This document shows, piece after piece, positions 279-22,420 of a stretch of 64,000 nt of DNA; the stretch's first letter is position 1; every line of letters begins with the position of its first letter. Source of the stretch: Methanosarcina sp. KYL-1 (GTDB lineage Archaea > Halobacteriota > Methanosarcinia > Methanosarcinales > Methanosarcinaceae); NCBI RefSeq assembly GCF_024372725.1, contig NZ_VOUA01000004.1, forward strand, positions 1 to 64,000, written 5' to 3'. The position numbers and the translations under genes were made by a program. Below the pieces are notes generated by a model that saw only the letters and a list, made by a program, of their open reading frames with translations, made no database searches and was not told the DNA's origin.

Positions 279-1325
279 TTAGCAAACTCTCGGGATCGGG
301 TCTCCTGCAGGCACGTCCACGTAACGCATACCGCCGAAACGGTTCCTGAGGAGTACTTCGCCTTTGTTTTCGGAGGTGACTTCCCCTATGAGGGCTGCAT
401 CCCTGCCGTAGGGGTGCTGCCTGAGGATGGAAAGGACTTCTTCTTCGAAGCCGGCTTTCACTCCTATGACGGCTTTGCCTTCGTTTGCGACTTCCAGGGG
501 GTCAAGGCCGAGCATCTCGCAGGCTGCAGTGACTGCGGGCTTATAGGGGATTCTGTCTTCTTCGAGCAGGACGGTTACTCCGGATTTGGCTGCCATCTCG
601 TTGAGGGCGTTTGCAAGCCCCCCGCGGGTCGGGTCTTTCATGGCGGTGATGACAGGTTTACCTTCCGGGGTCCTGAGTTTCAGGAGGGGCTCGATGAGCT
701 TCCAGAGGGGTGCTGAGTCCGATACCAGGTCGGTATCGAAGTCAAAACCTTCCCTGTGGGCCATGAGGGAGATCCCGTGGTCCCCAATGGTGCCCGTGAC
801 CAGGATTTTGTTTCCCGGGGAGAGCCCCGAGTCCCTTACCGGGCAGTCCGTGATCCCCAGGCCTGCGGTGTTAAGGATGATCGAGTCAAGAGCGCTTTTT
901 TCCACGGTCTTGGTATCTCCGGTTATGACGGGGACGCCGGCTTCGGCTGCAGTATCTCCCAGGGTTTTGATGATTACCTCAAAGTCTTTAAGGGGGAAAC
1001 CTTCGGGAACGATAACTGCGCAGGTCAGGGCCAGGGGCTTTGCCCCCATGACCGTGAGGTCGTTGATCGTGCCTGCAGCAGCCAGCCTTCCTATGTTCGT
1101 GTCCGGGAAGAAGGCAGGGGTTATCACGTGGCTGTCCGTTGTCAGCACGAGTTCGGAGTTCGGGCCGAAGGCTTCAAGCCTGACCGTGGACCCGTCGTCC
1201 AGGCTCTCAAGCCCGACAGAGCCTGCGCTCTTGCTGCTCAAGTTTTTCAGGATTATCTCCCCGATCAGTGCCTGCATTACCTCTCCGCCTGCGCCGTGTT
1301 CAAGGGAAATCGTACCGGCTTTCAT
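279..1325 (-). CDS. hypE: Hydrogenase maturation protein HypE (carbamoyl dehydratase)
   Basis: This 348-residue protein has the length and sequence of HypE. HypE accepts a carbamoyl group from HypF on its C-terminal cysteine and dehydrates it to the thiocyanate that supplies the cyanide ligands of the [NiFe] active-site iron. The sequence starts with the typical MKAGTISLEHGAGGEVMQ region, has the PurM/AIR-synthase-like ATP-binding fold segments (TGDTKTVEK, DPTRGGLANALNEMA) and ends in the required PRVC. The ATG at 1325 lies 12 bases after the hypB stop codon, so it is the last gene of the minus-strand hypC-D-A-B-E operon. No hypF is present in the window. Confidence 0.95.
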   Translation of the reverse strand: MKAGTISLEHGAGGEVMQALIGEIILKNLSSKSAGSVGLESLDDGSTVRLEAFGPNSELVLTTDSHVITPAFFPDTNIGRLAAAGTINDLTVMGAKPLALTCAVIVPEGFPLKDFEVIIKTLGDTAAEAGVPVITGDTKTVEKSALDSIILNTAGLGITDCPVRDSGLSPGNKILVTGTIGDHGISLMAHREGFDFDTDLVSDSAPLWKLIEPLLKLRTPEGKPVITAMKDPTRGGLANALNEMAAKSGVTVLLEEDRIPYKPAVTAACEMLGLDPLEVANEGKAVIGVKAGFEEEVLSILRQHPYGRDAALIGEVTSENKGEVLLRNRFGGMRYVDVPAGDPIPRVC

Positions 1326-1337
1326 ACTGGCCTCTCT

Positions 1338-2009
1338 TCAGTTACTTTTGCCTTCTTTAGCTTTCATGAGCCCGATTTCGATGAAGCCTATCCAGGTCTC
1401 CAGGCTTTCCCAGTCGTGCTTCGAAGTCAGGAGGACAGGCACGTCGGGGTTGAGGGAAAGGATGTCCTCATGCATTTTTTCCGGATCTGCGTCAACGGCT
1501 CCGGCAAGGTCTACCTTATTTATGATTGCAAGCTCGGCAGTCTTGAAAATCATCGGGTGTTTAAGGATGATGTCGTCTCCTTCGCTCACGCTCACGGCCA
1601 CGACCCTGAGGTGTTCTCCCAGCTTGAAGTCTACGGGACAGATCAGGTTGCCCACGTTCTCGATTAGCAGGAGGTCCGTGTTTTCAAGGTCGATCTCTTT
1701 TAAGGCGTTTTCTACCAGCTTTGCGTCCAGGTGGCATTCCTTGCCCGTGTTTGCAGGGACTGTCGGCACCCCGAGTTTCCTGAACCTGGAAGCGTCCATT
1801 TCTGCGATCACATCGCCTGCAATCACGGCGATCCTGTACCTGTCTTTCAGGTGTTTGATCGCCTCTTCGATCAGGGTGGTCTTACCTGACCCGATTGCCC
1901 CCATGACGTTTACGGCAAAGATGCCGTGCTTATCAAGGTTCTTCCTGTTTTTTTCGGCAAGCTTGTCGTTTGCCTTAAAGACGTCATGTCCCATGTGGAT
2001 TACGTGCAT
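1338..2009 (-). CDS. hypB: Hydrogenase nickel incorporation GTPase HypB
   Basis: HypB is the SIMIBI-class GTPase that delivers nickel to the hydrogenase large subunit together with HypA. The P-loop is GAIGSGKTT about 40 residues in. The switch/metal region NVGNLICPVDFKLGEH supplies the cysteine and nearby residues used for metal binding at the dimer interface, and NKVDLAG is the guanine-specificity motif. There is no histidine-rich nickel-storage N-terminus. The chosen start is the ATG of MHVIHMGHDV. An in-frame GTG at 2024 and an ATG at 2015 also exist; GTGAT just upstream can act as ribosome-binding site. Unlike the other hyp genes it is separated from the preceding gene (hypA) by about 300 bp of repeated DNA. 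Confidence 0.93.
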   Translation of the reverse strand: MHVIHMGHDVFKANDKLAEKNRKNLDKHGIFAVNVMGAIGSGKTTLIEEAIKHLKDRYRIAVIAGDVIAEMDASRFRKLGVPTVPANTGKECHLDAKLVENALKEIDLENTDLLLIENVGNLICPVDFKLGEHLRVVAVSVSEGDDIILKHPMIFKTAELAIINKVDLAGAVDADPEKMHEDILSLNPDVPVLLTSKHDWESLETWIGFIEIGLMKAKEGKSN

Positions 2010-2133
2010 CAACATAAATATCACTTCAGAATTCTTAATCAGCCACTTTTTGCCTGGTCAGTCCTTTGACAGGCTTTTGATTTATTTAAGTTCGGGAACC
2101 GATTCGAATGAAGGACCAATTAGTTGTCGAATT

Positions 2134-2276
2134 GACCAATTCTTTCGGTTGAACGGATCAATTAATTAGTTGGATCAGTGGACCAATTCTTTCGGTTGAA
2201 TGGATCAATTAATTAGTTGGATCGAATGGACCAATTCTTTCGGTTGAATGGGTCAATTAGCTTTCTCGAATGGATC
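2134..2276. repeat. Tandem repeat, 47-48 bp unit, three copies, between hypA and hypB
   Basis: The segment GACCAATTCTTTCGGTTGA begins at 2134, 2181 and 2229, each followed by a similar GGATCAATTAATTAG tract. Shorter degenerate pieces (GAATGGATCGATTAG) continue to about 2288. The repeat fills the only sizeable gap (2025-2318) in the hyp operon. No gene is seen in it. Confidence 0.85.
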
Positions 2277-2318
2277 GATTAGTTGGATTGGCATGTTCAG
2301 CCAGTTTCCTGAGCCGGC

Positions 2319-2720
2319 TTACTGTACCTGTTCAGTTTCAATATCGATGCTTTTTATGACCAGCTCTCGGCCGCCTGTGATCCGGGCCTGTTTCCCGCAT
2401 GCAGGGCATTTGAGGGCAGCGACGTACTCCAGCAGTTCGCTCAGGAGTTCGTCCCTTTCTCCGGCCTGTGCTTCATCGACTGTGCCCGTGTACCCGCATT
2501 CGCACTCAAGGGAGGGGGGTATCATCTCGACAATGAATTTTGCACCTTCGGCAATGCTGCCTTCGGCAAGGGCCCCGAAGCAGAAGCTTAACTGTTCGGG
2601 GTTCGTGTGGGTAAGCCTGCCCATCTCAAGGGTCACGGACCTTACCTCGGAAGCTCCGTGAGCTCTGGCGGCTGCTATCACCTGTTCGAAGATCTCGCAG
2701 GCAATGGAGTATTCATGCAA
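2319..2720 (-). CDS. hypA: Hydrogenase nickel metallochaperone HypA
   Basis: HypA binds nickel through its N-terminal MHE and works with HypB to load the large subunit. The start is placed at TTG 2720-2718, because this gives the conserved (M)HEYSIACEIFEQV N-terminus and a normal length of 133 residues; the frame runs open further upstream but only as a shadow of hypD. The ribosome-binding site GGAGG lies inside the last codons of hypD, and the two genes overlap by 8 bp. The structural zinc site is CxC (LECECGYTG) plus CPACG, with a long archaeal-type insertion between them. A start placed at an upstream ATG would be wrong because the nickel-binding His2 would no longer be N-terminal. Confidence 0.9.
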   Translation of the reverse strand: MHEYSIACEIFEQVIAAARAHGASEVRSVTLEMGRLTHTNPEQLSFCFGALAEGSIAEGAKFIVEMIPPSLECECGYTGTVDEAQAGERDELLSELLEYVAALKCPACGKQARITGGRELVIKSIDIETEQVQ

Positions 2721-3837
2721 GCCTGCTGCCTCCTTCCCTGGAGTACCTGAACCAGTTGTAGCACATCCCCTCAAGGCTGACCATGCAGGGGCCTGAAGGG
2801 GTTTTCGGGGTACATTCTTTCCCGAAGTTCGGGCACTGGGAGGGCTTTGCTTTTCCTGTGAGGATAGCTGCACAGATGCAGCGCTTTTTATCCTTTCTTT
2901 CAGCTTTTTCCCGGATTTCCTCGAGGGCAGAAGAATAGAGTTCTTCATGCTTTTTTGCGGCATTCTGTCCCTCAAACTCCTTCTTTAAAACCAGCCCCGA
3001 ATCCTTGATCTCCCCGATTCCTCTCCATTCGGAGCCTGAGGTCTCGAACACTTCCTCCATCATTTTCAGGGCAATCAGGTTTCCTTCGGGTTTCACTGCC
3101 CTGGGGTAACCGTTGTCCACCCTTGCGGCTCCTGCTTCGGCCTGGGCAAGGAGAAGGGTTATCCCGAGGAGGATGTCCCGGGCCTCAAACCCGCTAACAA
3201 CAACAGGAAAGCCTTTTTTTGCCAGGGGTTCAAAGGGTTTTGTCCCGATGATGGTTGCAACATGCCCGGGGGCAATAAAGGCATCCACCTCGGTATCTTT
3301 TGCAAGCAGGTCGATAGCGGGGGGGGTCCGCTTCTGGGAAGCCAGGAGGCTGAAGTTTTCCGGCACTCCCCTGAGGAGCACTGCTGCGTTTGCGGGGACC
3401 GTGGTCTCAAACCCGATCCCGAAAAAGATCACTTCCTGGCCGGGTTTCTTTTCGGCCAGGGCCACGGCATCGTCGATGCTGTAGACCATCCTCACGTCTG
3501 CCCCTTCGGACTTTGCGTCCAGCAAACTTCCGGCCGAGCCGGGGACCCGCATCATGTCCCCGAAAGTGACCACGGCAGCTCCGCTTTTTGCAAGGGCGAT
3601 TGCAATGTCGATATCCGCTTCGGGAGTAACGCAGACCGGACAGCCCGGGCCGCTGATTACCTCAATTTCCTCGGGAAGCACACTTCTAAGCCCGTATTTT
3701 GCTATGGTCCTCTCGTGTGTGCCGCAGACGTGCATGATGCGAAGCGGACGGGCAGAGGCTTCGATCCGTTCAAGGAGCTTTTTTTCAAGCTCAGGAATAG
3801 TTTGCTTTGGAGCGGAGTTTTCGTTTTCCATTTCCAT
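2713..3837 (-). CDS. hypD: Hydrogenase maturation protein HypD (Fe-S scaffold)
   Basis: HypD, with HypC, is the scaffold on which Fe(CN)2CO is assembled for [NiFe] hydrogenases. The 374-residue protein shows the family hallmarks: MHVCGTHE near residue 38, GPGCPVCVTP, FGIGFETTVP, GHVATIIGT, and a C-terminal [4Fe-4S] cysteine set (CPNFGKECTP, GPCMVS, GMCYNW). It starts at an ATG 26 bp after the hypC stop and overlaps hypA at its end, which indicates co-transcription and probably coupled translation. Confidence 0.96.
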   Translation of the reverse strand: MEMENENSAPKQTIPELEKKLLERIEASARPLRIMHVCGTHERTIAKYGLRSVLPEEIEVISGPGCPVCVTPEADIDIAIALAKSGAAVVTFGDMMRVPGSAGSLLDAKSEGADVRMVYSIDDAVALAEKKPGQEVIFFGIGFETTVPANAAVLLRGVPENFSLLASQKRTPPAIDLLAKDTEVDAFIAPGHVATIIGTKPFEPLAKKGFPVVVSGFEARDILLGITLLLAQAEAGAARVDNGYPRAVKPEGNLIALKMMEEVFETSGSEWRGIGEIKDSGLVLKKEFEGQNAAKKHEELYSSALEEIREKAERKDKKRCICAAILTGKAKPSQCPNFGKECTPKTPSGPCMVSLEGMCYNWFRYSREGGSRLA

Positions 3838-4689: not shown

Positions 4690-4806
4690 TTCGTCTTATA
4701 TTTTGATAATGTTGAGTATTTTATAAAGTTGTGTAAAATTCAGTTTCATGCTCTTTTGCATGCCTATCCCGGAAAAATTCCGAAAAACCTTTTTTGTGAT
4801 CATATG

Positions 4807-5955
4807 ATGAACAAAAACAACCCACATGATTCCGAAAAAACGGAAAAACCCGATTTTTTTAACATGGACCGACGAACGTTCCTGAAGGCTGCCTGCCTCC
4901 TTGGGGCATCTGCATTCCTGGGGACGTACCGGACAGAACTCGTAAGTGCCCTGGAGATGGCGGAGACAAAGATCGTCTGGCTGCACGGGGCCGAATGTAC
5001 GGGCTGCACCGAGTCCCTCTTAAACGGAGGTGACCCTGACGTGATTGCGGCTCTCTCTGCTCTTAACACTAAGCTTGCCTACCATGAGACCCTTCTTGCC
5101 GGGCAGGGCATCTTTGTAGACGATAAGCCTGCAAACAATGCCGAGCTGAATTCCGAAATTCTTGTTGACGAACTTATAACGGAAGGAAATTACATCCTGG
5201 TCGTCGAAGGTGCAATCCCGAACGGGCCAAACGGTTCCGGGCGCTTCTTCGTGGTAGGGGACCGGACTTTTAAGGAACTCTTTGCAAAAGCTGCCGGGAA
5301 TGCCAGCGCAATCCTTGCAGTCGGGACCTGTGCAGCCTATGGCGGTATCAACTCTGCCAGCAGTGCAATCGCACAGCTTACGGACTACAGGGGGGTAGCT
5401 TTCAAAGGGGCCGACAGTTCCGGGGGTATGCTCCGGGAACTCGGCATAAACAAGCCGGTTATAAACATTCCAGGCTGTCCTGCACACCCGGACTGGATTT
5501 TATTGACCCTGAGTGCTGTGGTACTCGGAAAAATAAAGGTTCCTTCCGATCTCCCCTCGGTCCTGGACCGGTACGGAAGGCCCCGGGCTTATTTCGATGA
5601 AGATGTTCATGATGAATGTCCCCGCCACGAGTATTATGAGAGGGACGAATTCGATACTGAGATCGGCGGGCATAAATGCCTTTTAAAACTCGGGTGCAAG
5701 GGCAAACATGCAAATGCGGACTGTTCGATTCGCAAGTGGAACGGTGGGGCCAGCATGTGCGTCCAGGCGGGCTCTCCCTGTATAGCCTGTGTGGAACCGG
5801 GATTCCCTGACTCTTCGAGGCCTTTTTACCAGCCGGGGTCGGGCAGCTCTTTGGAGGGTGATTCACACAGTTCGGATTCAGATGAGGGAGATTCTTATGA
5901 AAAATATTCCCGTGACAAGAGCTCTGATTACAGAAAAATAAGGAGGGATGATTAA
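4807..5955 (+). CDS. vhoG: [NiFe] hydrogenase small subunit, Vho-type, with atypical hydrophilic C-terminus
   Basis: This is the electron-transferring small subunit carrying three Fe-S clusters. The N-terminus has a Tat signal ([20 protein letters not shown]), so the G-A dimer is exported to the outer face of the membrane. Cluster ligands are visible: [38 protein letters not shown] and [14 protein letters not shown]. The start is the second of two adjacent ATGs (4804, 4807) behind GTGATC; the frame is open further upstream without support. Its C-terminus differs from the other two copies: the hydrophobic anchor-like helix is absent and is replaced after about residue 340 by a Ser/Asp/Glu/Lys-rich tail. 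The downstream operon lacks a cytochrome b gene. Confidence 0.93.
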
Positions 5956-5957
5956 AA

Positions 5958-7745
5958 ATGGTAAAAGTTACAGTAGACCCCTTAACAAGGATCGAGGGTC
6001 ACCTCCGCCTGTCCACCGAAGTCAACTCCGAAGGCATAGTAACCGATGCTCAAAGTTCAGCTTTACTCTTCCGGGGCTTTGAACGCATCCTCCAGAACCA
6101 GGACCCAAGGGACGCAGCACTTCTTACACAGCGGATCTGCGGGGTCTGCCCGACTTCCCACTCCCTTGCAGCCGCAGGTGCCCTTGACCAGCTCTTCGGG
6201 GTTGCCGAAAGTGTTCCCAAGGATGCCCTTGTTGCAAGGAACATCAACCAGGCTTTAAACACAATTGCAAGCCATGCAACCCACATCTATGTCCTCTGGG
6301 GCCCTGACCTTGCAAACCCCGCTTACCGCGATGTCCTCACCCCTCTCGGGGAAACCGGAAGCGCTTTGTGGAAGGAACTCTTGGGCCGTTTTGCTCCCAT
6401 CAGCTACAAGCTTGACGGCGTCCCCGTTCCCGTAGGTTCTTCTTACCTTGCAGCGATCCCCGAAAAGAAGCGCCTTCAGGAGGCCATTGCCGTAATCGGC
6501 GGCAAGATGCCCCACCAGGTCACTTCCTATCCCGGCGGCTACACTTACAAGCCCACCATTGCAGACATCGGCAAACTTTCTTCTTATTACCTGCAGGTCA
6601 TGGACTTCGTTTCAAAGTACACCCTTAGGGTTTCCTTTGAAGACTGGATTGAAAACACCTATAAGGCAAGTTCCCCCCAGAAGGCCGTTTCTTTCGTGCT
6701 TGAACACCTGCAGGGCCTTGTTGACAAAACCGCAGGTTCCAACAACTTCACCCGGGAAGTCGGCTGGGGAGATGCTGAGTTCTATGCTGCCTTCGGGTCC
6801 GAACTTGTTGGAGAAACCCTCCTCGGGCTTCCTGCCAGCCTGAAGCATGACAGGAACGGCGGGTACAGCGACCCCTCAAAGATTGCTTTCCTTGCATACG
6901 GCGCTTTCTACAAGCCTGAAAACGGGGACGGGTATGACCCTAACAGCCCTGCAGGCGACCGCTTCCAGACATCCGGCATTGTGACCGGAAACCTCGAATA
7001 CCAGAACTTTGACGCAAGCAAGATCACCGAAAGTGTTGCCCACTCCTTTTACGAAGGTTCGGGCGACCTCCACCCCTCAAAGGGTGAGACCAACCCTGTG
7101 GGCGATCCTGCCGAAATCCGCTATGATCGGGGACCTGATAGCAGGTATACCTGGTCAAAGGCCCCGAGGTATGATGGTATTCCCTGTGAAGTCGGGCCTC
7201 TCGCCCGCCTGCTTGCAATGAAGGAACCGCTGGTTACCGGGCTTGCCCTTGCCTTTGCGGAGAACGGCTACTCTGCGGCCAACACCTACACAAGGATGAT
7301 GGCCCGGATTCAGGAAACCGCAATTATTGCAAACGAGCTCCTTAAATGGGTAACCGTTGACTACGACCCTAACGGCAAGATTGCCGTGCACACTGACCTT
7401 TCCATGGCAAAGGATTCGCAGGGCATGGGCCTCTGGGAAGCCCCCCGCGGTGCCCTCGGGCACTGGGTCTCCACAGACAGCAACTCTAAGGTCATAAGCT
7501 ACCAGCCCGTGGTCCCGAGTACATGGAACTTCTCCCCACGGGACAGCTCGGGAACTCCGGGTCCTGTGGAACAGGCTTTGATCGGGACTAAAATCAGTGC
7601 GGTAGAAAACGCTCTTGGTGTCGATTATGCTAACCCGGTCAACATCCTCCATGTCGGAAGGTCATACGATCCGTGTATTGCTTGCGCTGTTCACACCATT
7701 GACCTTACCGGGAAAAACACTCCAGCTACTTTAAAGCTGGTCTGA
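5958..7745 (+). CDS. vhoA: [NiFe] hydrogenase large subunit, Vho-type
   Basis: This 595-residue subunit binds the NiFe(CN)2CO active site. Both ligand motifs are present: [10 protein letters not shown] near residue 60 and DPCIACAVH near the end. The 16 residues after the final His form the C-terminal extension that a maturation protease must remove. The gene follows vhoG by 2 bp behind AAGGAGGGATGATT. It is nearly identical to vhtA (9725-11512), with long perfectly identical DNA blocks separated by a diverged stretch, which indicates gene conversion. No vhoC or protease gene follows, so maturation probably relies on VhtD at 12500. Confidence 0.95.
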
Positions 7746-7813
7746 GGGACTCCGGATTTAACTCTTCCATCCGGATAGCCATCCTCCAGGTCCGGAATTT
7801 TGAAAGGAAGGTC

Positions 7814-7845
7814 GGTATCCTTTAAATCCATGGTTTAAAGGTACC
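7814..7845 (+). terminator. Strong inverted repeat after vhoA, likely end of the vhoGA transcript
   Basis: GGTA-t-CCTTTAAA (7814-7826) pairs with TTTAAAGG-TACC (7834-7845) around TCCATGG, giving 12 pairs with one bulged base, 69 bp after the vhoA stop. There is no long T-run directly after it, so the effect could also be mRNA 3'-end stabilisation. Confidence 0.5.
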
Positions 7846-8471
7846 GCCCCTTTTCATGCTTTTTTTCGAGGAACTTGAACGGAGGCATGATGGGTTTGCC
7901 TGTGCTGCAAATCTTTTTTCTCGGGGAAACCTGGTTTCCTGGCGTTCCTGTTCTGTCGTTCAGGGGAAAAGGCATTCTGATAAATGGCATTCTTTCAAAA
8001 AGCTCAGGCTGAAAAATGAAAGGAAATATCTCTTTTTCGGGTTTATTTGTTATTTTGAACCTGTTTGGTGTTTTCTCTATTGTTTACCCTTTATATACGA
8101 AAATCTTTATTAGATTTTGCTATGTTTTTCTGTTTATTTTGTATAAATTTCAGTTTGTATAATTAATACACTATAGTATCTTTTTTCATAGTATTAATAC
8201 TATTATTAAACAATTTTTCATCGTTTTTTATCTTTTTGATTTTCAGAATCGGTTTTCCAACTTTTATCATTTTTTATTACTTATACTTCCATCCGCCCTC
8301 TTTCTTTGTGGTTTGCTGGATATATATGTGCACCAGAGTACGGTGTCAATTTTGGCTATTTTTTATATAATTTGCAAAATTATAAAATCTTACATTCTTT
8401 TTAATTATATATTTATTTTCAGATGTAAAAACCCTTAAATACTATCCCCTCATTGAGAACATTATCGGTAG
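7846..8471. other. AT-rich intergenic region before vhtG with a 16-bp perfect palindrome
   Basis: No convincing gene is seen. The region becomes very AT-rich after 8100. It holds the perfect palindrome ATAGTATTAATACTAT at 8188-8203, close to a partial relative (ACACTATAGTAT) just upstream. The site lies nearly 300 bp before the vht TATA box, so a role as operator is only a possibility. Confidence 0.4.
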
Positions 8472-8565: not shown

Positions 8566-9717
8566 ATGAATACAGGAAAAAATAACCTTGTCCGTACACT
8601 GGAGAGTGTGGACTTTTTAAAAATGGATCGGCGTACTTTCCTGAAAGCGGTGGGTGCAGTGGGAGCAACAGCATTCCTGGGTACCTATAAGACAGAGATC
8701 GTAAGTGCGCTTAAATTTGCAGAGACTAAGATCATCTGGCTGCACGGTGCGGAATGCACTGGCTGTTCCGAATCTGTTTTAAACGGGGGAAACCCTGACA
8801 TTGTCCAGGCGATTTCCAAGCTTAATGTTAACCTCGCTTATCATGAAACTCTGCTTGCCCAGCAGGGAATCTTCGTTGATGGCAAGCTTGCAAACACCTC
8901 CGAACTTAACTCCGAAATTCTCATTGATGAGCTTATTGAAGAAGGAAACTACATCCTGGTTGTAGAAGGCGCAATTGCAAACGGGCCTGATGGTTCCGGC
9001 CGCTACTGCGTGATCGGGAACCGGACTTTTAAGGAAATCTTCGCAAAGGCTGCAAAACATGCAAACGCCATCCTTGCAGTCGGGACCTGTGCCGCCTACG
9101 GAGGCATCAACTGCGCAGACAGTGCAGTTGCAAAGGTTACCGATTATAGGGGAGTTGCCTTCACAAAAGAAGACAGCTCAAAAGGAATGCTCCAGGAACT
9201 CAACCTTAAGAAGCCTGTAATAAACATTCCTGGCTGCCCTGCTCATCCTGACTGGATTCTCCTTACCGTCGGTGCGGTGATCCTCGGAAAGATCAGGATC
9301 CCCGACGACCTTGATGCCGTTCTGGACCTGTACGGCAGGCCCAAGGTTTTCTTCCCGACCGACCACACCGTGCACGAAAACTGCCCGCGCCGCGGCTTCT
9401 ACGACCGCGGAGAGTTCGATGAGCAGATTGGTGGGGACAAGTGCCTCTGGAAGTTAGGCTGCAAGGCTCCTTATTCTCACGCAGACTGTGCCATTCGCCG
9501 CTGGAACGGGTCAGTGAGCATGTGTACTCAGGCAGGCTCTCCCTGCATCGCCTGTGTGGAACCGGGCTTCCCTGACGCAGCAAGACCTCTCTATGTCGAA
9601 GCCGAAGACAAGGGCGTGCTCCTCGGGGCAAACATCGATACCCTTTCCAAAGTTGCGGTTGGCGCTGCTACCGTAGCAGCAGGGGTACATGCGATCAGGA
9701 GAATGAGAGGAGAGTGA
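8566..9717 (+). CDS. vhtG: Methanophenazine-reducing [NiFe] hydrogenase small subunit VhtG
   Basis: This 383-residue small subunit has a Tat motif ([20 protein letters not shown]), placing it on the outer face of the membrane. Fe-S ligands are [29 protein letters not shown], the VHENCPRRG segment, CLWKLGCKA and [14 protein letters not shown]. It ends with a hydrophobic helix (LSKVAVGAATVAAGVHAIRR) that can anchor the dimer next to the cytochrome. The start is ATG 8566, before MNTGKNNLV; a longer upstream frame has no support. It leads the complete vhtG-A-C-D operon, with 7 bp to vhtA. VhtGAC oxidises H2 and reduces methanophenazine in hydrogen-using Methanosarcina. Confidence 0.95.
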   Translation: MNTGKNNLVRTLESVDFLKMDRRTFLKAVGAVGATAFLGTYKTEIVSALKFAETKIIWLHGAECTGCSESVLNGGNPDIVQAISKLNVNLAYHETLLAQQGIFVDGKLANTSELNSEILIDELIEEGNYILVVEGAIANGPDGSGRYCVIGNRTFKEIFAKAAKHANAILAVGTCAAYGGINCADSAVAKVTDYRGVAFTKEDSSKGMLQELNLKKPVINIPGCPAHPDWILLTVGAVILGKIRIPDDLDAVLDLYGRPKVFFPTDHTVHENCPRRGFYDRGEFDEQIGGDKCLWKLGCKAPYSHADCAIRRWNGSVSMCTQAGSPCIACVEPGFPDAARPLYVEAEDKGVLLGANIDTLSKVAVGAATVAAGVHAIRRMRGE

Positions 9718-9724
9718 TTAAAAA

Positions 9725-11512
9725 ATGGTAAACGTTACAGTCGACCCCTTAACCAGGATTGAAGGCCACCTTCGCCTGTCCACTGAAGTAAACTCTGATG
9801 GTATTATTACTGATGCCCAAAGTTCCTGCCTGATGTTCAGGGGCTTTGAGCGTATCTTACAGAACCAGGACCCCAGAGACGCAGCCCTCCTCGTCCAGAG
9901 GATCTGCGGGGTCTGCCCGACCTCCCACTCCCTTGCAGCTGCAGGTGCCCTTGACCAGCTCTTCGGGGTTGCCGAAAGCGTTCCCAAGGATGCCCTTGTT
10001 GCAAGGAACATCAACCAGGCTTTAAACACAATTGCAAGCCATGCAACCCACATCTATGTCCTCTGGGGCCCTGACCTTGCAAACCCCGCCTATCGCGATG
10101 TCCTCACCCCTCTCGGGGAAACCGGAAGCGCTGTGTGGAAGGAACTCTTGGGCCGTTTTGCTCCCATCAGCTACAAGCTTGACGGCGTCCCCGTGCCCGT
10201 AGGTTCTTCCTACCTTGCAGCGATCCCTGAAAAGAAGCGCCTGCAGGAAGCCATAGCCGTAATAGGCGGCAAGATGCCCCACCAGGTCACTTCCTATCCC
10301 GGCGGCTACACTTACAAGCCCACCATTGCAGACATCGGCAAACTTTCTTCTTATTACCTGCAGGTCATGGACTTCGTTTCAAAGTACACCCTTAGGGTTT
10401 CCTTTGAAGACTGGATTGAAAACACCTATAAGGCAAGTTCCCCCCAGAAGGCCGTTTCTTTCGTGCTTGAACACCTGCAGGGCCTTGTTGACAAAACCGC
10501 AGGTTCCAACAACTTCACCCGGGAAGTCGGCTGGGGAGATGCTGAGTTCTATGCTGCCTTCGGGTCCGAACTTGTTGGAGAAACCCTCCTCGGGCTTCCT
10601 GCCAGCCTGAAGCATGACAGGAACGGCGGGTACAGCGACCCCTCAAAGATTGCTTTCCTTGCATACGGCGCTTTCTACAAGCCTGAAAATGGGGACGGGT
10701 ATGACCCTAACAGCCCTGCAGGCGACCGCTTCCAGACATCCGGCATTGTGACCGGAAACCTTGAATACCAGAACTTTGACGCAAGCAAGATCACCGAAAG
10801 TGTTGCCCACTCCTTCTTCGAAGACAGTGGAGACCTCCACCCATCAAAAGGTGAGACCTTCCCGGTTACAAGCCCTGAAGAGATCAGCTATGAAGGTGGA
10901 TCCGACAGCCGTTACTCCTGGTCAAAGGCCCCGAGGTACGGCGGTGTCCCCTGTGAAGTCGGTCCCCTTGCCCGCCTGCTCGCAATGAAAGAGCCGCTGG
11001 TTACCGGGCTTGCCCTTGCCTTTGCGGAGAACGGCTACTCTGCGGCCAACACCTACACAAGGATGATGGCCCGGATTCAGGAAACCGCAATTATTGCAAA
11101 CGAGCTCCTTAAATGGGTAACCGTTGACTACGACCCTAACGGCAAGATTGCCGTGCACACTGACCTTTCCATGGCAAAGGATTCGCAGGGCATGGGCCTC
11201 TGGGAAGCCCCCCGCGGTGCCCTCGGGCACTGGGTCTCCACAGACAGCAACTCTAAGGTCATAAGCTACCAGCCCGTGGTCCCGAGTACATGGAACCTCT
11301 CTCCGAGAGACAGTGCAGGCGTCCCGGGCCCACTGGAGCAGGCCCTTATCGGGTCAAAGATCAGTGCGGCGGAAAACGCTCTCGGTGTCGATTACGCTAA
11401 CCCTGTAAACATCCTTCATATCGGTAGGTCCTATGACCCCTGTTCAGCATGTGCTGTCCATACCATTGACCTTACCGGGAAAAACACTCCCCGTACTTTA
11501 AGAATAGTATAA
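9725..11512 (+). CDS. vhtA: Methanophenazine-reducing [NiFe] hydrogenase large subunit VhtA
   Basis: This 595-residue catalytic subunit has [10 protein letters not shown] near the N-terminus and DPCSACAVH near the C-terminus, followed by a 16-residue cleavable tail. The same operon encodes its protease (VhtD). The protein is almost the same as VhoA; the main differences lie in the first 60 residues, in a patch around residues 365-425 and in the last 70. Several hundred bases of DNA are identical to vhoA, far beyond what protein constraint would require. vhtC starts 14 bp downstream behind AAGGAGATGA. Confidence 0.96.
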
Positions 11513-11526
11513 GGAGATGACCCATA

Positions 11527-12339
11527 ATGAAAGCCAAGAACAACCCGATGGTTGTTGAGCGCTATACGGTACTTGACAGGACGGCTCATACCTTCCATGC
11601 CGTTGCAATGCTGGTGCTCATCATTACCGGGTTAAAGATCTACGCGGGCTGGGACTTTATGACATTCCATAATGCCCGTGCCCTTCACATGATCATGGTT
11701 CCAGTTCTGCTTGCAGTAAACTGGATCCTTATTCCCTACAACATCTTCTCTGCAATTGAGGGTGGAGTTCAGGAAAAGCTGGCACACTTTATGGACCACT
11801 ATGTCTTCGGTCCCGAAGATGTAACCCGCCTGAAGGCAATACTTCTTAATTTCTTCGGAAAGGGAGAGTACCCCGCATTTACCATCTATGATGAAGTTTC
11901 GGGCCACTACCAGACCAAACTTCACCCGGTAATGAAGATCCTGGTCGTGCTGGAAGGTACCGCTATCTTCGTTATTGCGGTCTCAGGTATTGTCATCTAC
12001 AGGCTTGACTGGATGCTCTTCGGGCTTCCGGTTGGTTCCTGGATCCTTTCCGCAGGAGACCTGGTCGCACCTGCCTTTGCGATGACTTCCCTGCAGTTCT
12101 ACAGGGCCCTCCACCTGCTCATGACCTACTGGTTTGTTTTCGAACTGGTAGTCCACGTGTTTATCCTGGAGCTTGACCCTCATATCTGGAAGTACTACTG
12201 GGCTATATTCTGGTCCGGAAAAGAGGACCTTTCAGACCCTCACTATGTGAAAATTGTCAAACACACTCCCAAACACCTTCCGGACGGGGAGCTCTGGCAC
12301 GATTCATCTGAAAGGGTTGTTGATGTCTCAAAGGAATAG
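11527..12339 (+). CDS. vhtC: Hydrogenase cytochrome b subunit VhtC
   Basis: This 270-residue integral membrane di-haem cytochrome b passes electrons from VhtGA to methanophenazine. Four hydrophobic segments are visible, roughly residues 20-40, 56-75, 140-165 and 195-220. Histidines in or near helix ends are candidates for haem ligands ([38 protein letters not shown]). The N-terminus [17 protein letters not shown] and the C-terminal [14 protein letters not shown] are shared with VhxC. A 160-bp gap separates it from vhtD. Confidence 0.93.
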
Positions 12340-12499: not shown

Positions 12500-12985
12500 A
12501 TGCCTGTATTACATGCTCCGGTCCGTATCCTGGGATGCGGAAGCCCCCTTATGGGAGACGACGGTGTCGGCCTGAAGGTTGTTGAGGCCCTCAAAAAAAC
12601 GGAACTTGAAGGGCTCGAAGGCCTTGAGATCATAGACGCCGGCGTATGCGGACTGGACCTTCTGAACCTGCTTGACGGTGCCAGGAAAGTCATCATAGTG
12701 GATGCAATCCTGACAGGCAGCCTCACAGGTTCAATTCACCGCTTCAACGGCAGGGACCTTATAGAAAGTGACTCTCCCTCCGTGCTCGTCTCGGTGCACG
12801 ACCTGAGCATTTCCGATGTGTTGAGGATCGGGGAACAGGTGCAGGACCTTCCGGAAATCGTGGTATTCGGCATAGAAATCGGAAAGCCTGCCACGGAGAT
12901 CTCCCGGGAATTGAGCCCCAAAGTCCTTGCGTCTGTGGATGAGGCAGTGGAATGTATCAGGGAAGAAGTCTCTGACCTGTTCTGA
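12500..12985 (+). CDS. vhtD: Hydrogenase maturation protease VhtD (HycI/HyaD/HoxM family)
   Basis: This 161-residue endopeptidase removes the C-terminal tail of the large subunit after nickel insertion. The family motif GCGSPLMGDDGVG is near the N-terminus; the first Asp/Glu-type nickel ligand lies in GDDG, and EIIDAGVCGLDLL and VSVHDLS supply the second acidic and the His ligand regions. It is the only such protease in the window and probably serves VhtA, VhoA and VhxA. The ATG at 12500 follows GTGAGAAT. Confidence 0.9.
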   Translation: MPVLHAPVRILGCGSPLMGDDGVGLKVVEALKKTELEGLEGLEIIDAGVCGLDLLNLLDGARKVIIVDAILTGSLTGSIHRFNGRDLIESDSPSVLVSVHDLSISDVLRIGEQVQDLPEIVVFGIEIGKPATEISRELSPKVLASVDEAVECIREEVSDLF

Positions 12986-13436: not shown

Positions 13437-14651
13437 ATGGGCGAAGATGGCTACCTTGACCGATTAAAACACCTAGATTTCATGAAAATGAATCGCCGGG
13501 CCTTCCTTAAAGCCGTGGGCGCCCTGGGAGCGTCTTTGTTTTTGCAAACCTACCGGAGTGAAATCGTAAGAGCCCTGGAGTTTTCTGAGACCCGGATCGT
13601 CTGGGTCCATGGAGGAGAATGTACCGGATGTTCCGAGTCCCTGTTAAACGGGGGCGAACCTGACCTGCTTCAGGCCCTCAAGCGCCTGAACATGCGGCTT
13701 GCTTACCATGAAGTCCTCCTCGGCCCTCAGGGGATTTACGTGGACGGAAAAATGGCAAATACTTCCGAACTCAATTCCGAGATTCTTTTTGAGGAAGTTA
13801 TTGAGGAAAAAGGTTACATCCTGGTTGCAGAAGGTGCGATTCCCAATGGGCCCAGGGGCACCGGAAAGTACTGCATCCTCGGCGGGAAGACTTACAAGGA
13901 TATTTTCCGGCGGGCTGCGGAAAATGCCGCTTTCATTGTGGCTGTGGGACAGTGTGCAACCAACGGGGGAGTGAATTCTGCAGACAGCGAGATCCGGGAC
14001 CTTATGGACTTCCGGGGAGTTGCCTTTACCATGGAGGACAGGGAAAAAGGGATACTCCGGGAATACGGGCTTGAGAAGCCGGTCATCAATATCAACGGCT
14101 GCCCTCCCCATGCCGACTGGATGCTCCTTACTCTGGCTGCAGTTGTGCTCGGAAAGATCAAAGTCCCCGACGACCTTCCCTACGTTCTTGACGAATTGCT
14201 GCGTCCGAAAGTCTTTTTCCCGCCGGACCACGTCATCCACGACAACTGCCCGAGAAGAGGCTACTATGATAAAGGAGAGTTTGACACCGTGGTCAGCGGC
14301 CCAAAGTGCCTCTGGAAATTAGGGTGCAAGGCTCCTTACACCCATGCTGACTGTGCTATCCGCCGCTGGAACGGTTACCACAGCCTCTGCCCGCAGTCAG
14401 GGTCCCCCTGCATAGCCTGTGTCTCTCCGGGTTTCCCTGACAGTTCTCGTCCCTTCTTCCAGGAGATTGAAGATGTGGGAATTGTAGGGACAAATATCGA
14501 TACCGTTGCAAAGGTTGCTATCGGAGGTGCCCTGCTTGCGGCAGGTGCCCACGCTGTCCGGAGAATTGCCGTGAAAGATAAGCCTGAAAGAAAGGAAGAG
14601 AAAGAAGAAAAAGGTAAAGAATCAGCAGAAAAGGGCGGGGAGGATGAGTAA
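13437..14651 (+). CDS. vhxG: [NiFe] hydrogenase small subunit VhxG
   Basis: This is the third small-subunit paralogue, 404 residues from ATG 13437 (after GTGGTGGTGTCGA). The Tat motif is MNRRAFLKAVGALGASLFL. Cluster cysteines are kept ([44 protein letters not shown]), but the second motif reads VGQCATNGG instead of VGTCAAYGG in the other two copies. A C-terminal hydrophobic helix (VAKVAIGGALLAAGAHAVRR) is followed by a long charged Lys/Glu tail. It directly abuts vhxA (stop then ATG with no gap). In M. barkeri the vhx operon has been reported as not measurably expressed; nothing in the sequence here looks inactivated. Confidence 0.93.
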   Translation: MGEDGYLDRLKHLDFMKMNRRAFLKAVGALGASLFLQTYRSEIVRALEFSETRIVWVHGGECTGCSESLLNGGEPDLLQALKRLNMRLAYHEVLLGPQGIYVDGKMANTSELNSEILFEEVIEEKGYILVAEGAIPNGPRGTGKYCILGGKTYKDIFRRAAENAAFIVAVGQCATNGGVNSADSEIRDLMDFRGVAFTMEDREKGILREYGLEKPVININGCPPHADWMLLTLAAVVLGKIKVPDDLPYVLDELLRPKVFFPPDHVIHDNCPRRGYYDKGEFDTVVSGPKCLWKLGCKAPYTHADCAIRRWNGYHSLCPQSGSPCIACVSPGFPDSSRPFFQEIEDVGIVGTNIDTVAKVAIGGALLAAGAHAVRRIAVKDKPERKEEKEEKGKESAEKGGEDE

Positions 14652-16439
14652 ATGGTTGAGGTTACGGTTGATCAGCTTACCAGGATTGAAGGGCATTACA
14701 GGATTACCACCCAGGTCAATGAGGAGGGTGTGGTTACCGAAGCCCAGAGCATGGGGCTTATGCTCAGGGGTTTTGAGCGCTTCCTCCAGAAACAGGACCC
14801 CAGGGATGCCGCTCTTCTCACCCAGCGGATCTGCGGGGTCTGCCCGACTTCCCACTCCCTTGCGGCCGCAAATGCCCTTGACCAGCTCTTCGGGGTTGAA
14901 GATGCGGTCCCTAAAAATGCCCTTGTCATGCGCAATATCCACCAGGCCCTTAACCTGATTGCAAGCCATGCCACCCATGTCTATGTTCTCTGGGGGACAG
15001 ACCTTGCAAACCCCGCCTACAGGGACCTTCTCGGCAATTATGGGGATACGGGAAAAGCTGTCTGGGACGAACTGCTCGGGAGGTTTGCCCCTATCAGTTA
15101 CAGGCTGGACGGCGTTGACATCCCTGTCGGCCGCGGGTATGCGGCGGCAATTGCGGAGAAGCGGCGGTTGCATGAGGCAATCTCCCTTTTTGCGGCAAAG
15201 ATGCCCCATTCCGTGCTGTCCCATGTGGGAGGCGTAACCTACGGGCCTACTGCCGCAGATATAGGGCAGCTTGCTTCTTATTACTGGAAAGTTATGGATT
15301 TTGTCGAGCACTTCACCCTTGGGGTTCCTCCGGAGACCTGGGTTGAAAACACCCGGTTTGCCTCTTCCCCGCAAAAAGCCGTGGGTTTCGTGGTTGACCG
15401 GCTGCAGGAGCTCGTTGATGCATCCCTTGTTTCTAATGATTTCTCCTATGCTGCGGGCTGGGGAGATGTGCCCCTGTATACGGCATTTGGCTCCGAACTC
15501 ATAGGCGAGGAAGTCCTGGGGCTTCCGGCAAGCATGAGGCTGGACAGGATCGGAGGCTACAGCGACCCCTCAAAGATCGGTTTCCTTACTTACGGGGTCT
15601 TCTTCAAGCCCGAGCTCGGAGACGGCTATGACCCGACAAGCCCTCCTGAATCCAGGGTCATTCCTTCCGGGTTCCTGAACGGTAATCTCAAACTGAGCAG
15701 GTTCGACCACAGCAAAATCACCGAAAGCATTGCCCATTCCTTCTACGTGGACTCCGAGTCAGACAGGACCCCTCTTGAAGGGACCACCCAGCCGGAACCC
15801 GAGCCGGATGAGATCGATTACAGCCGGGGAATTGAAAGCCGGTATTCCTGGGTAAAGGCTCCGCATTATGGCGGGATTCCATGTGAGGTAGGGCCCCTTT
15901 CCCGCATGCTTGTTATGAAAGACCCCCTCATCATGGGCCTTATGGACCTTTTCCGGGAAAAAGGCTACCCTGCTCCCAACACCTTCCTCCGCATGCTTGC
16001 CCGGATGCAGGAAATCCTGGTGGTGGCAGCGGAACTCCTCAAATGGCTGACCGTAGACCTTGACCCAAGCGGAAAGTTTGCAGTCCCTACCGACCTTTCC
16101 ATGGCAAAGGACTCGCAGGGCATGGGGCTCTGGGAGGCTCCCAGAGGGGCTCTGGGGCACTGGGTCGCAACGGATTCTGATTCCAAAGTCACGCTCTACC
16201 AGGCGGTAGTCCCAAGCACCTGGAACCTGGCTCCGAGAAACACGGCAGGAGTCCCCGGCCCGGTAGAACAGGCCCTTACAGGGATAAAGATCTCGGCTGC
16301 AGGAAATGCGCTTGGGGTGGATTATACGAACCCTCTCGGAATCTTCCACACGGCCCGTTCCTATGATCCCTGCCTGGCCTGTGCCATCCATACCATCGAC
16401 CTGACCGGGAAGCGGAAAGAGCAGGTCAGGGTGATCTGA
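14652..16439 (+). CDS. vhxA: [NiFe] hydrogenase large subunit VhxA
   Basis: This 595-residue large subunit has both active-site motifs ([10 protein letters not shown] and DPCLACAIH) and a cleavable tail ([15 protein letters not shown]), so it should be able to bind NiFe(CN)2CO. It is clearly more diverged from vhoA and vhtA than these are from each other and shows no long blocks of identical DNA. It has no dedicated protease gene; vhtD upstream may serve it. vhxC follows after 14 bp. Confidence 0.94.
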
Positions 16440-16453
16440 CGGGGGGTTTTGGT

Positions 16454-17230
16454 ATGGCGGGGAGAAAAGGGCAGGAAGCTTCCGGAAAGCCGGGGGAAAG
16501 CATGGTCGTCGAACGCTATACCCTCCTTGAGAGGATTACGCACCTGATCCACCTGCTTTCCATGTTGACCCTGGTTATCACGGGGCTTAAGATCTATCTG
16601 GGCTGGGACTTCATGGCCTTCGATAAGGCCCGGACCCTGCATATGATTGCGGTCCCATTTTTCCTGGCTGCAAACTGGATCCTGGTCCCCTATAACGTTT
16701 TTTCCTGTGGGGAAGAGGCCTGCGACATAAAGTTCCGGCTCAGGCATTTTATTGATAGCTACATTTTCGGGCCCGAGGATGCAAAACGCCTCAAAGCAAT
16801 CGTTCTCAATTTCTTCGGCAAGGGCGATTATCCGGCTTTCACGATATATGATGTCCGGGAAGGGCATTATGTAACAAAGCTTCATCCCCTGCTCAAGCTC
16901 CTGATCATTCTCGAAAGCACGGCAATTTTCCTGATTGCAGTAACGGGAATAGTGCTCTACAGCCCTAACTGGTCCCTCTTCGGCCTTCCTGTTGCGCAGT
17001 GGATACTTGCCGTTTTCGGGGTCTTTGCCCCTTACTTTGATGTGCAGCCCCTGGGCCTGGTCCGGGTCGGGCACCTTGCCGCTACCTACTGGTTCCTGTT
17101 TGAACTCACGCTCCACGTAGGTATCCTTGAACTTGACCCTAAAGTCTGGAAGTATCACAAGGCAATCTTCTGGTCCGGAAAAGAAGACCTTTCGGACAGG
17201 AACTTTGTCGAGGTTATCGGGAAAAAATAA
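16454..17230 (+). CDS. vhxC: Hydrogenase cytochrome b subunit VhxC
   Basis: This 258-residue membrane cytochrome b is homologous to VhtC along its length ([58 protein letters not shown]). Four hydrophobic segments and conserved histidines support the same fold. The N-terminus is about nine residues longer than in VhtC before the shared MVVERYT; an internal ATG at 16502 would remove this extension, but the upstream ATG has a G-rich ribosome-binding region. It is the last gene of vhxGAC. Confidence 0.92.
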
Positions 17231-21358: not shown

Positions 21359-22420
21359 ATGGAAAAGGCGGATAAGTGGATGTTTCAGCCTAATTTCAAA
21401 TACACAAACAAAATCGTGCGCCTGCTTGCAAGGATCCAGGCTGCAAGGGAAGTCATCATAAACAGCCCTCTGATTCCGGCGTGGGAAAAACAGCTCCAGC
21501 AAGAAGCCCTGGTAAAACAGACCCACCACACTACAAGCATAGAGGGAAACCCCCTGACTCTTGAGGAAGTTGGGCTTATTATCGAGGGAAAAGAGGTCCT
21601 CGCCCACGAAAAGGACAAAAAGGAAGTCCGCAATTACGTGGACGTACTGAAATACATCGATTCACTACCGGAAAACGACCCCATAACCGAAGAAATTCTC
21701 CTTGAAATCCACAGCCTTACGGCAAAAAATATCCTTCCTGATGATTCTGTCGGCAACTACCGGAAAGTGCGGGTCATAGTTGGAGACCCGAAAACCGGGA
21801 AAGTCACCTACACCCCTCCGGGACCTGCTGAAGTCCCTGCCCTGACAAAAGCCCTTGTCGAGTGGCTAAACAGCGAAGAAGCCCTTGACCTCATGCCCGC
21901 CATGCAGGCAGGAATCGCACATCACGAACTTGCCAGGATCCACCCCTTCGTCGACGGGAACGGCAGGTCTGCGAGGGCTCTTGCCACCCTTATCCTGACA
22001 AAGAGAGGCTTTGACACCAAGAGGTTTTTCGCTCTTGAGGAGTACTACAACAAAGCCCGCCACTCCTATTACTCCGCCCTTTCAAGTGCTGATGAGGGGG
22101 ACAGGGATTTGACCGAATGGCTCGAATATTTCCTTTTCGGCATTGCCGTGGAAATTTCAAGGGTAGAGAAAACGGTCCTGAAGCTGAGCAGCGACCGTTC
22201 GATGAAAGAGAAATTCGGACAGGTAGGGCTGAGCAGCCGGCAGATAAAGGCGATTGAATATTTAAAAGAAAAGGGGCAGATCACAAGCAATGAGTATCAG
22301 GAAATATGTGATGTCAGCCAGCCCACCGCAAACCGTGACATCCAGGATATGCTCGACAAAAAACTCCTGATACAAAACGGGAAAATGGGCCAGCAGGTAA
22401 TTTACGTGCTCAATTTCTGA
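21359..22420 (+). CDS. Fic family protein (AMPylator) with winged-helix C-terminus
   Basis: This 353-residue protein has the Fic active site HPFVDGNGRSARAL at about residues 195-208; Fic enzymes transfer AMP or other groups to protein hydroxyls. An inhibitory helix motif of the (S/T)xxxE(G/N) type is present upstream (TTSIEGN, near residue 58), so it is a class II self-inhibited Fic. The last 90 residues look like a winged helix (SSRQIKAIEYLKEKGQITSNEYQEI), common in stand-alone Fic-wHTH regulators. The target is unknown. It stands alone between two intergenic regions. Confidence 0.88.
   Translation: MEKADKWMFQPNFKYTNKIVRLLARIQAAREVIINSPLIPAWEKQLQQEALVKQTHHTTSIEGNPLTLEEVGLIIEGKEVLAHEKDKKEVRNYVDVLKYIDSLPENDPITEEILLEIHSLTAKNILPDDSVGNYRKVRVIVGDPKTGKVTYTPPGPAEVPALTKALVEWLNSEEALDLMPAMQAGIAHHELARIHPFVDGNGRSARALATLILTKRGFDTKRFFALEEYYNKARHSYYSALSSADEGDRDLTEWLEYFLFGIAVEISRVEKTVLKLSSDRSMKEKFGQVGLSSRQIKAIEYLKEKGQITSNEYQEICDVSQPTANRDIQDMLDKKLLIQNGKMGQQVIYVLNF

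Follow-up and report, generated by a model that had tools for sequence, protein, structure and literature searches.

The 64,000-nucleotide stretch of DNA analysed here (the window) carries three hydrogenase gene sets beside divergent hyp genes, vhoGA, vhtGACD and vhxGAC, of which the first has no cytochrome b gene, and this raises the question of where its dimer exchanges electrons. The earlier note on this DNA had left two answers side by side: either the dimer shares VhtC, the cytochrome of the neighbouring set, or it is an extracytoplasmic H2-oxidising enzyme with a different acceptor.

The vhoGA unit and its neighbours

The hydrogenase region comprises the following features:

279..3837, minus strand: divergent hyp genes (hypE 279-1325, hypB 1338-2024, hypA about 2319-2715, hypD 2713-3837)
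4807..5955, plus strand: vhoG, [NiFe]-hydrogenase small subunit of the exported type, 382 aa, without C-terminal helix
4807..4950, plus strand: Tat signal peptide region of VhoG (DRRTFLK, RR at residues 22-23; TIGR01409 match)
5614..5709, plus strand: re-made surface round the distal Fe-S cluster, VhoG residues 270-301 (...GCKGKH vs HENCPRRGFYDRGEF...GCKAPY in VhtG)
5830..5952, plus strand: hydrophilic acidic Ser/Asp-rich tail of VhoG in place of the C-terminal hydrophobic helix
5958..7745, plus strand: vhoA, [NiFe]-hydrogenase large subunit, 595 aa, ligands intact
6498..6922, plus strand: gene-conversion tract, 425 bp identical to vhtA 10265-10689
7230..7532, plus strand: gene-conversion tract, 303 bp identical to vhtA 10997-11299
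7801..7857, plus strand: stable hairpin followed by U7, likely the vhoGA terminator
8566..9717, plus strand: vhtG, paralogue with C-terminal helix
9725..11512, plus strand: vhtA
11527..12339, plus strand: vhtC, cytochrome b
12500..12985, plus strand: vhtD, maturation protease
13437..17230, plus strand: vhxGAC, third set, with helix and cytochrome b present

As had been described, vhoG (with a second ATG at 4804) and vhoA are intact genes at these positions, and their metal sites are complete: every Fe-S ligand is present in VhoG, and the Ni ligands of VhoA are intact, with both the RxCGxC and the DPCxxC motif. The Tat signal of VhoG scores 19.6 bits against TIGR01409 (cut-off 16.7), its two arginines are invariant in the alignment, and cleavage would fall near residue 48. 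A lipoprotein anchor through Cys30 was rejected because this residue is not conserved and lacks a proper lipobox.

Both subunits are homologous to VhtG and VhtA, and this homology, the intact ligands and the Tat signal on the small subunit place the pair in the Vht/Vho lineage of group 1 [NiFe]-hydrogenases. The likeness to the Methanosarcina VhtGAC enzyme is close, with 71% protein identity to VhtG, 92% DNA identity to vhtA and hyp genes alongside, but the pair differs in its distal-cluster surface and in lacking two defining features, a cytochrome b of its own in the operon and the C-terminal hydrophobic helix on G. Judged by sequence, VhoGA is a member of the Vht lineage and, because these two features are missing, would stand outside the membrane-bound VhtGAC complex.

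In the other sets the C gene starts 14 bp past the A gene (vhtA/vhtC, 11512/11527; vhxA/vhxC, 16439/16454), whereas the 820 bp between vhoA and vhtG (8566) hold no credible gene, in agreement with the earlier description. A dedicated vhoC elsewhere, the possibility that would have undone that description, was not found: VhtC gives just two matches in the whole assembly (4.04 Mb, 66 contigs, 99.7% complete), one in the vht and one in the vhx set. The hairpin behind vhoA proved as strong as had been claimed (-25.3 kcal/mol, z -4.0, none of 200 shuffles equally stable); no hairpin of this kind was seen in the intergenic DNA of vhoGA orthologues, and an Rfam scan of positions 1-24000 gave no match. 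Since the vhoGA unit contains no maturation protease gene, vhtD presumably serves VhoA as well. Further downstream, positions 21359-22420 encode a Fic/DOC family protein with a DeoR-like helix-turn-helix.

Conservation and ancestry of the pair

The same pair, with a homologous tail on the small subunit, is present in three MAG genomes of a sister genus (G037, G038 and G039; loci L006-L008). In two of these loci, which lie on longer contigs, vhoGA is again placed between hypD and vhtG, and a C gene after vhoA is absent from the two orthologous loci where the contig reaches that far. Purifying selection acts on the VhoG core, with dN/dS of 0.06-0.14 at dS values reaching about 1. In the complete fourth genome of the sister genus (G036), the vhoG promoter region is joined to the last 59 vhoA codons (L142:18014-19687), a deletion scar that shows secondary loss of vhoGA. 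The window's own genus is represented by 31 genomes in the search set, and none of the 30 others encodes a tailed VhoG. vhoGA is a real and old pair.

A maximum-likelihood tree of 76 small subunits unites the four VhoG proteins in one clade (100/100), which sits on a long stem beside the VhtG of the Rnf-containing lineage (94/89). Because the VhoG of an M. mazei-like genome (G009, assigned on the basis of its three G genes) groups with its own VhtG and not with the VhoG of the window, vhoGA is an old vht duplicate of the Rnf/MmcA-containing lineage and, by sequence, not the orthologue of M. mazei vhoGAC. The tie to M. mazei vhoGAC that had been implied is not borne out, and the name vhoGA is misleading for a pair whose sister in the tree is not M. 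mazei VhoG; an older relation to the VhoG of the window could, however, be masked by recent gene conversion in M. mazei. Among the literature found on vhoGA in Methanosarcina, no paper is evidently about a C-less pair, and further literature may exist.

Gene conversion between the two sets is confined to the A genes (5958-7745 and 9725-11512), and its tracts vary by species: besides the two tracts listed above, one identical tract of 347 bp lies at another position of the gene in G037, and G038 has none. The G genes diverge (70% DNA identity between vhoG and vhtG). The catalytic subunit is kept alike, with the electron-exit subunit diverging.

The tail and the distal-cluster surface of VhoG

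VhoG departs from its paralogues directly past RPFY (residue 341), where VhtG and VhxG continue into a hydrophobic helix. Its tail of 41 aa contains 11 S, 8 D and 3 K (net -4), and the tails of the three orthologues are longer (48-53 aa), D/S/G-rich and more acidic (net -8 to -10). The hydrophilic, Ser/Asp-rich character described in the earlier note therefore stands, but "Lys-rich" does not hold generally. The tail evolves fast (dN/dS 0.5-0.8), yet it is hydrophilic in every orthologue. A frameshift or assembly error private to this sequence, which the note had named as a danger to its reading, was rejected as the origin of the tail, because the same kind of tail occurs in three other genomes and the other reading frames of the tail DNA hide no VhtG-like helix.

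Among the relatives, seven Methanococcoides-like (g7) and two Methanosalsum-like (g13) genomes encode a VhtG homologue but no VhtC. This VhtG resembles VhoG in being Vht-type without a cytochrome b and without the C-terminal helix, but its twin arginines are lost too (MDWHKF, RR to WH), whereas VhoG keeps its Tat signal, and its clade is separate from the VhoG clade in the tree. With the Tat arginines lost, the g7/g13 enzyme is probably cytoplasmic. Its small-subunit genes (L137, L138, L141, L186-L189) lie in vhtGAD-hypF operons. A published table has a vhtGADF entry, with no cytochrome, for Methanosalsum zhilinae, apparently without discussion of the absence (PMC3017947); the gene after vhtD looks like hypF. 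Second GA pairs with no C gene nearby were also found in two g11 genomes (L134:2282-5247 and L199:2880-6427, the latter with a vhtD homologue downstream). Their small subunits retain the docking motif and, after a Ser/Asn-rich linker, the helix; these pairs may share a cytochrome.

Conservation round the distal cluster was assessed against a reference set of 63 small subunits taken as cytochrome-linked, in which 98 core positions are at least 95% conserved. All four VhoG sequences depart at 10 of these positions, nine of which fall within residues 262-303 (VhtG numbering), the part that contains the distal-cluster ligands; in the cytochrome b control clades, the same part shows no departure in VhxG, one in g6/g8 and none in g11/g12. 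The seven C-less Methanococcoides/Methanosalsum-like proteins all differ from the reference at five of these 10 sites as well (272, 276, 277, 282 and 303; hypergeometric p 7e-4). Region 262-303 was drawn after the data had been seen, and, as members of one clade are not independent observations, all p values given here are guides only. Clustering persists with residues 267-306 as the region (p 2e-4 for VhoG, 2e-3 for the Methanococcoides/Methanosalsum-like clade) and is weaker with PF14720 (p 0.013 and 0.06, respectively). Among bacterial relatives of group 1, the residue at VhtG position 282 is Gly in all 11 whose C-terminus has a hydrophobic stretch and in 5 of the 16 whose C-terminus has none, the two classes having been assigned by hand. 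An AlphaFold model of VhoG built from 13 sequences was too poor for use (mean pLDDT 51).

We read the changed surface of VhoG, including the missing conserved Arg/Gly/Gly/Tyr positions near the distal cluster, as a probable loss of the cytochrome b contact. The comparison in turn points to a set of residues round the distal cluster as the probable docking site of VhtC.

Electron partner and role of VhoGA

Of the two answers left open at the outset, that of an extracytoplasmic enzyme with another acceptor is now the better supported and a shared VhtC the less: the Tat signal is kept, and both the helix and the distal-cluster surface are changed, the latter in part at positions that have also changed in lineages without VhtC. 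Because the distal-cluster departures partly match those of the C-less clade and no such pattern accompanies a cytochrome, we favour, at a probability of about 0.6, the reading that VhoGA is an old Vht paralogue turned into a cytochrome-b-independent, exported soluble enzyme with another electron partner. The dimer would be processed by the neighbouring VhtD/Hyp machinery, exported folded by the Tat pathway and retained in the pseudoperiplasm or S-layer space. There it is proposed to work in the direction of H2 oxidation, and its distal cluster would hand the electrons to another extracytoplasmic redox partner, most likely a c-type cytochrome with several haems, for example the MmcA associated with Rnf, from which they could pass to methanophenazine or external acceptors.

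Such an enzyme may work most like the soluble periplasmic hydrogenases; in function its nearest counterparts would be those of Desulfovibrio and the secreted MIC hydrogenase. The closest solved relatives of the VhoG core are soluble periplasmic [NiFeSe] hydrogenases, and the Desulfovibrio [NiFe]/[NiFeSe] enzymes (2wpn, 4kl8) are likewise exported heterodimers with no membrane anchor, an architecture that for VhoGA is predicted. In the [NiFeSe] enzymes among them, Asp occupies the position of VhtG Gly277, where VhoG has an acidic residue as well; the Desulfovibrio enzymes belong, however, to another subfamily, and the extra acidic tail is found only on VhoG. The partner of the Desulfovibrio periplasmic hydrogenase is cytochrome c3, and VhoGA would similarly feed a c-type cytochrome.

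The metabolic setting offers a candidate. The window genome and the relatives that carry VhoGA have RnfC, and a gene for an MmcA with five CXXCH motifs adjoins rnf in G036, G037, G038, G001 and the window genome. This cytochrome belongs to the Rnf complex, can reduce both methanophenazine and external acceptors, and operates between -100 and -450 mV (PMC11024163), so that electron transfer from H2 to MmcA should be thermodynamically possible. Simple electrostatic docking of the two proteins is not favoured, since MmcA is strongly acidic (net -55) and the tail and changed surface of VhoG are acidic as well. It also speaks against MmcA that other genomes encode it but lack VhoGA. MmcA is the leading candidate for the acceptor, but that it is the actual partner is less likely than not. 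Only tentatively do we suggest the wider scheme: in Methanosarcinaceae of the Rnf type, a hydrogenase derived from Vht would have exchanged cytochrome b for a multihaem c-type cytochrome, either MmcA or one at the surface, and so opened a direct, VhtC-independent route from H2 to extracellular acceptors or into the conduit formed by Rnf and MmcA.

Sharing of VhtC (or VhxC), by which VhoGA would be a second H2-oxidising head for added capacity or different kinetics, has in its favour that VhtC is encoded 4 kb downstream, that gene conversion keeps vhoA nearly identical to vhtA and that second GA pairs without a C gene of their own exist elsewhere in the family (L134, L199). In the latter, however, which may truly use a common cytochrome, the helix and the Arg/Gly/Gly/Tyr positions lost from VhoG are both retained, and we consider sharing unlikely. 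The idea that VhoGA is merely a decaying copy kept as a gene-conversion donor could appeal to its clear conversion with vhtA, its deletion in G036 and its presence in just 1 of the 31 genomes of its own genus; it is hardly credible in view of frames that are open in four species at high dS, a core dN/dS of about 0.1 and the conservation of ligands and signal.

Two further proposals concern where the H2 comes from or goes. A released or S-layer-bound extracellular enzyme that works mainly by turning electrons from surfaces (Fe0, minerals, partner cells) into H2 for uptake by Vht would recall the MIC hydrogenase FohAB of Methanococcus/Methanobacterium, also an exported methanogen [NiFe] dimer, whose FohB has a Tat signal and a hydrophilic C-terminus straight after a conserved Tyr (PMC12667266). 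VhoG has the same architecture, and the genome appears to have neither Frh nor Ech to form H2 inside: in the window genome and g5, FrhA gives no match above the cut-off, and EchE gives just a distant homologue of about 38% identity, probably FpoD. Yet the MIC hydrogenase lies outside the four groups (PMC6181927), in a genomic island with tatA, tatC, a protease and FohE, whereas VhoGA is Vht by sequence and the genes identified in its flanks are hyp and vht; moreover, the FohB tail bears N-glycosylation sequons, of which the four VhoG tails have none, so that a glycosylated MIC-type tail was rejected. We regard this reading as very unlikely. Scavenging of H2 that leaks from nitrogenase, which is compatible with a soluble exported enzyme, has a precedent in a proposal for Vht of M. 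acetivorans (PMC13224831), and nifD is present in three of the four VhoGA genomes (G000, G037 and G039). It is absent from G038, which is 99% complete, and other nif-positive genomes lack vhoGA, making this source of H2 improbable at best as the reason for the pair.

The prevailing view is that Rnf-type Methanosarcina, M. acetivorans among them, make no native use of H2, and no settled role has been assigned to their hydrogenases; the MmcA-based extracytoplasmic network also serves metal and humic reduction. If exported and cytochrome-b-free, VhoGA would be another entry, or exit, of H2 for this network.

Among the remaining loci, a small-subunit gene of Methanococcoides vulcani (L019:8995-10017 / L190) has an in-frame TAG near its start, which could reflect a pseudogene or pyrrolysine readthrough. 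In four bacterial [NiFe]-hydrogenase small subunits (L038, L039, L047 and L056), the membrane helix is replaced by a C-terminal tail with CxxCH motifs, possibly for covalent haem.
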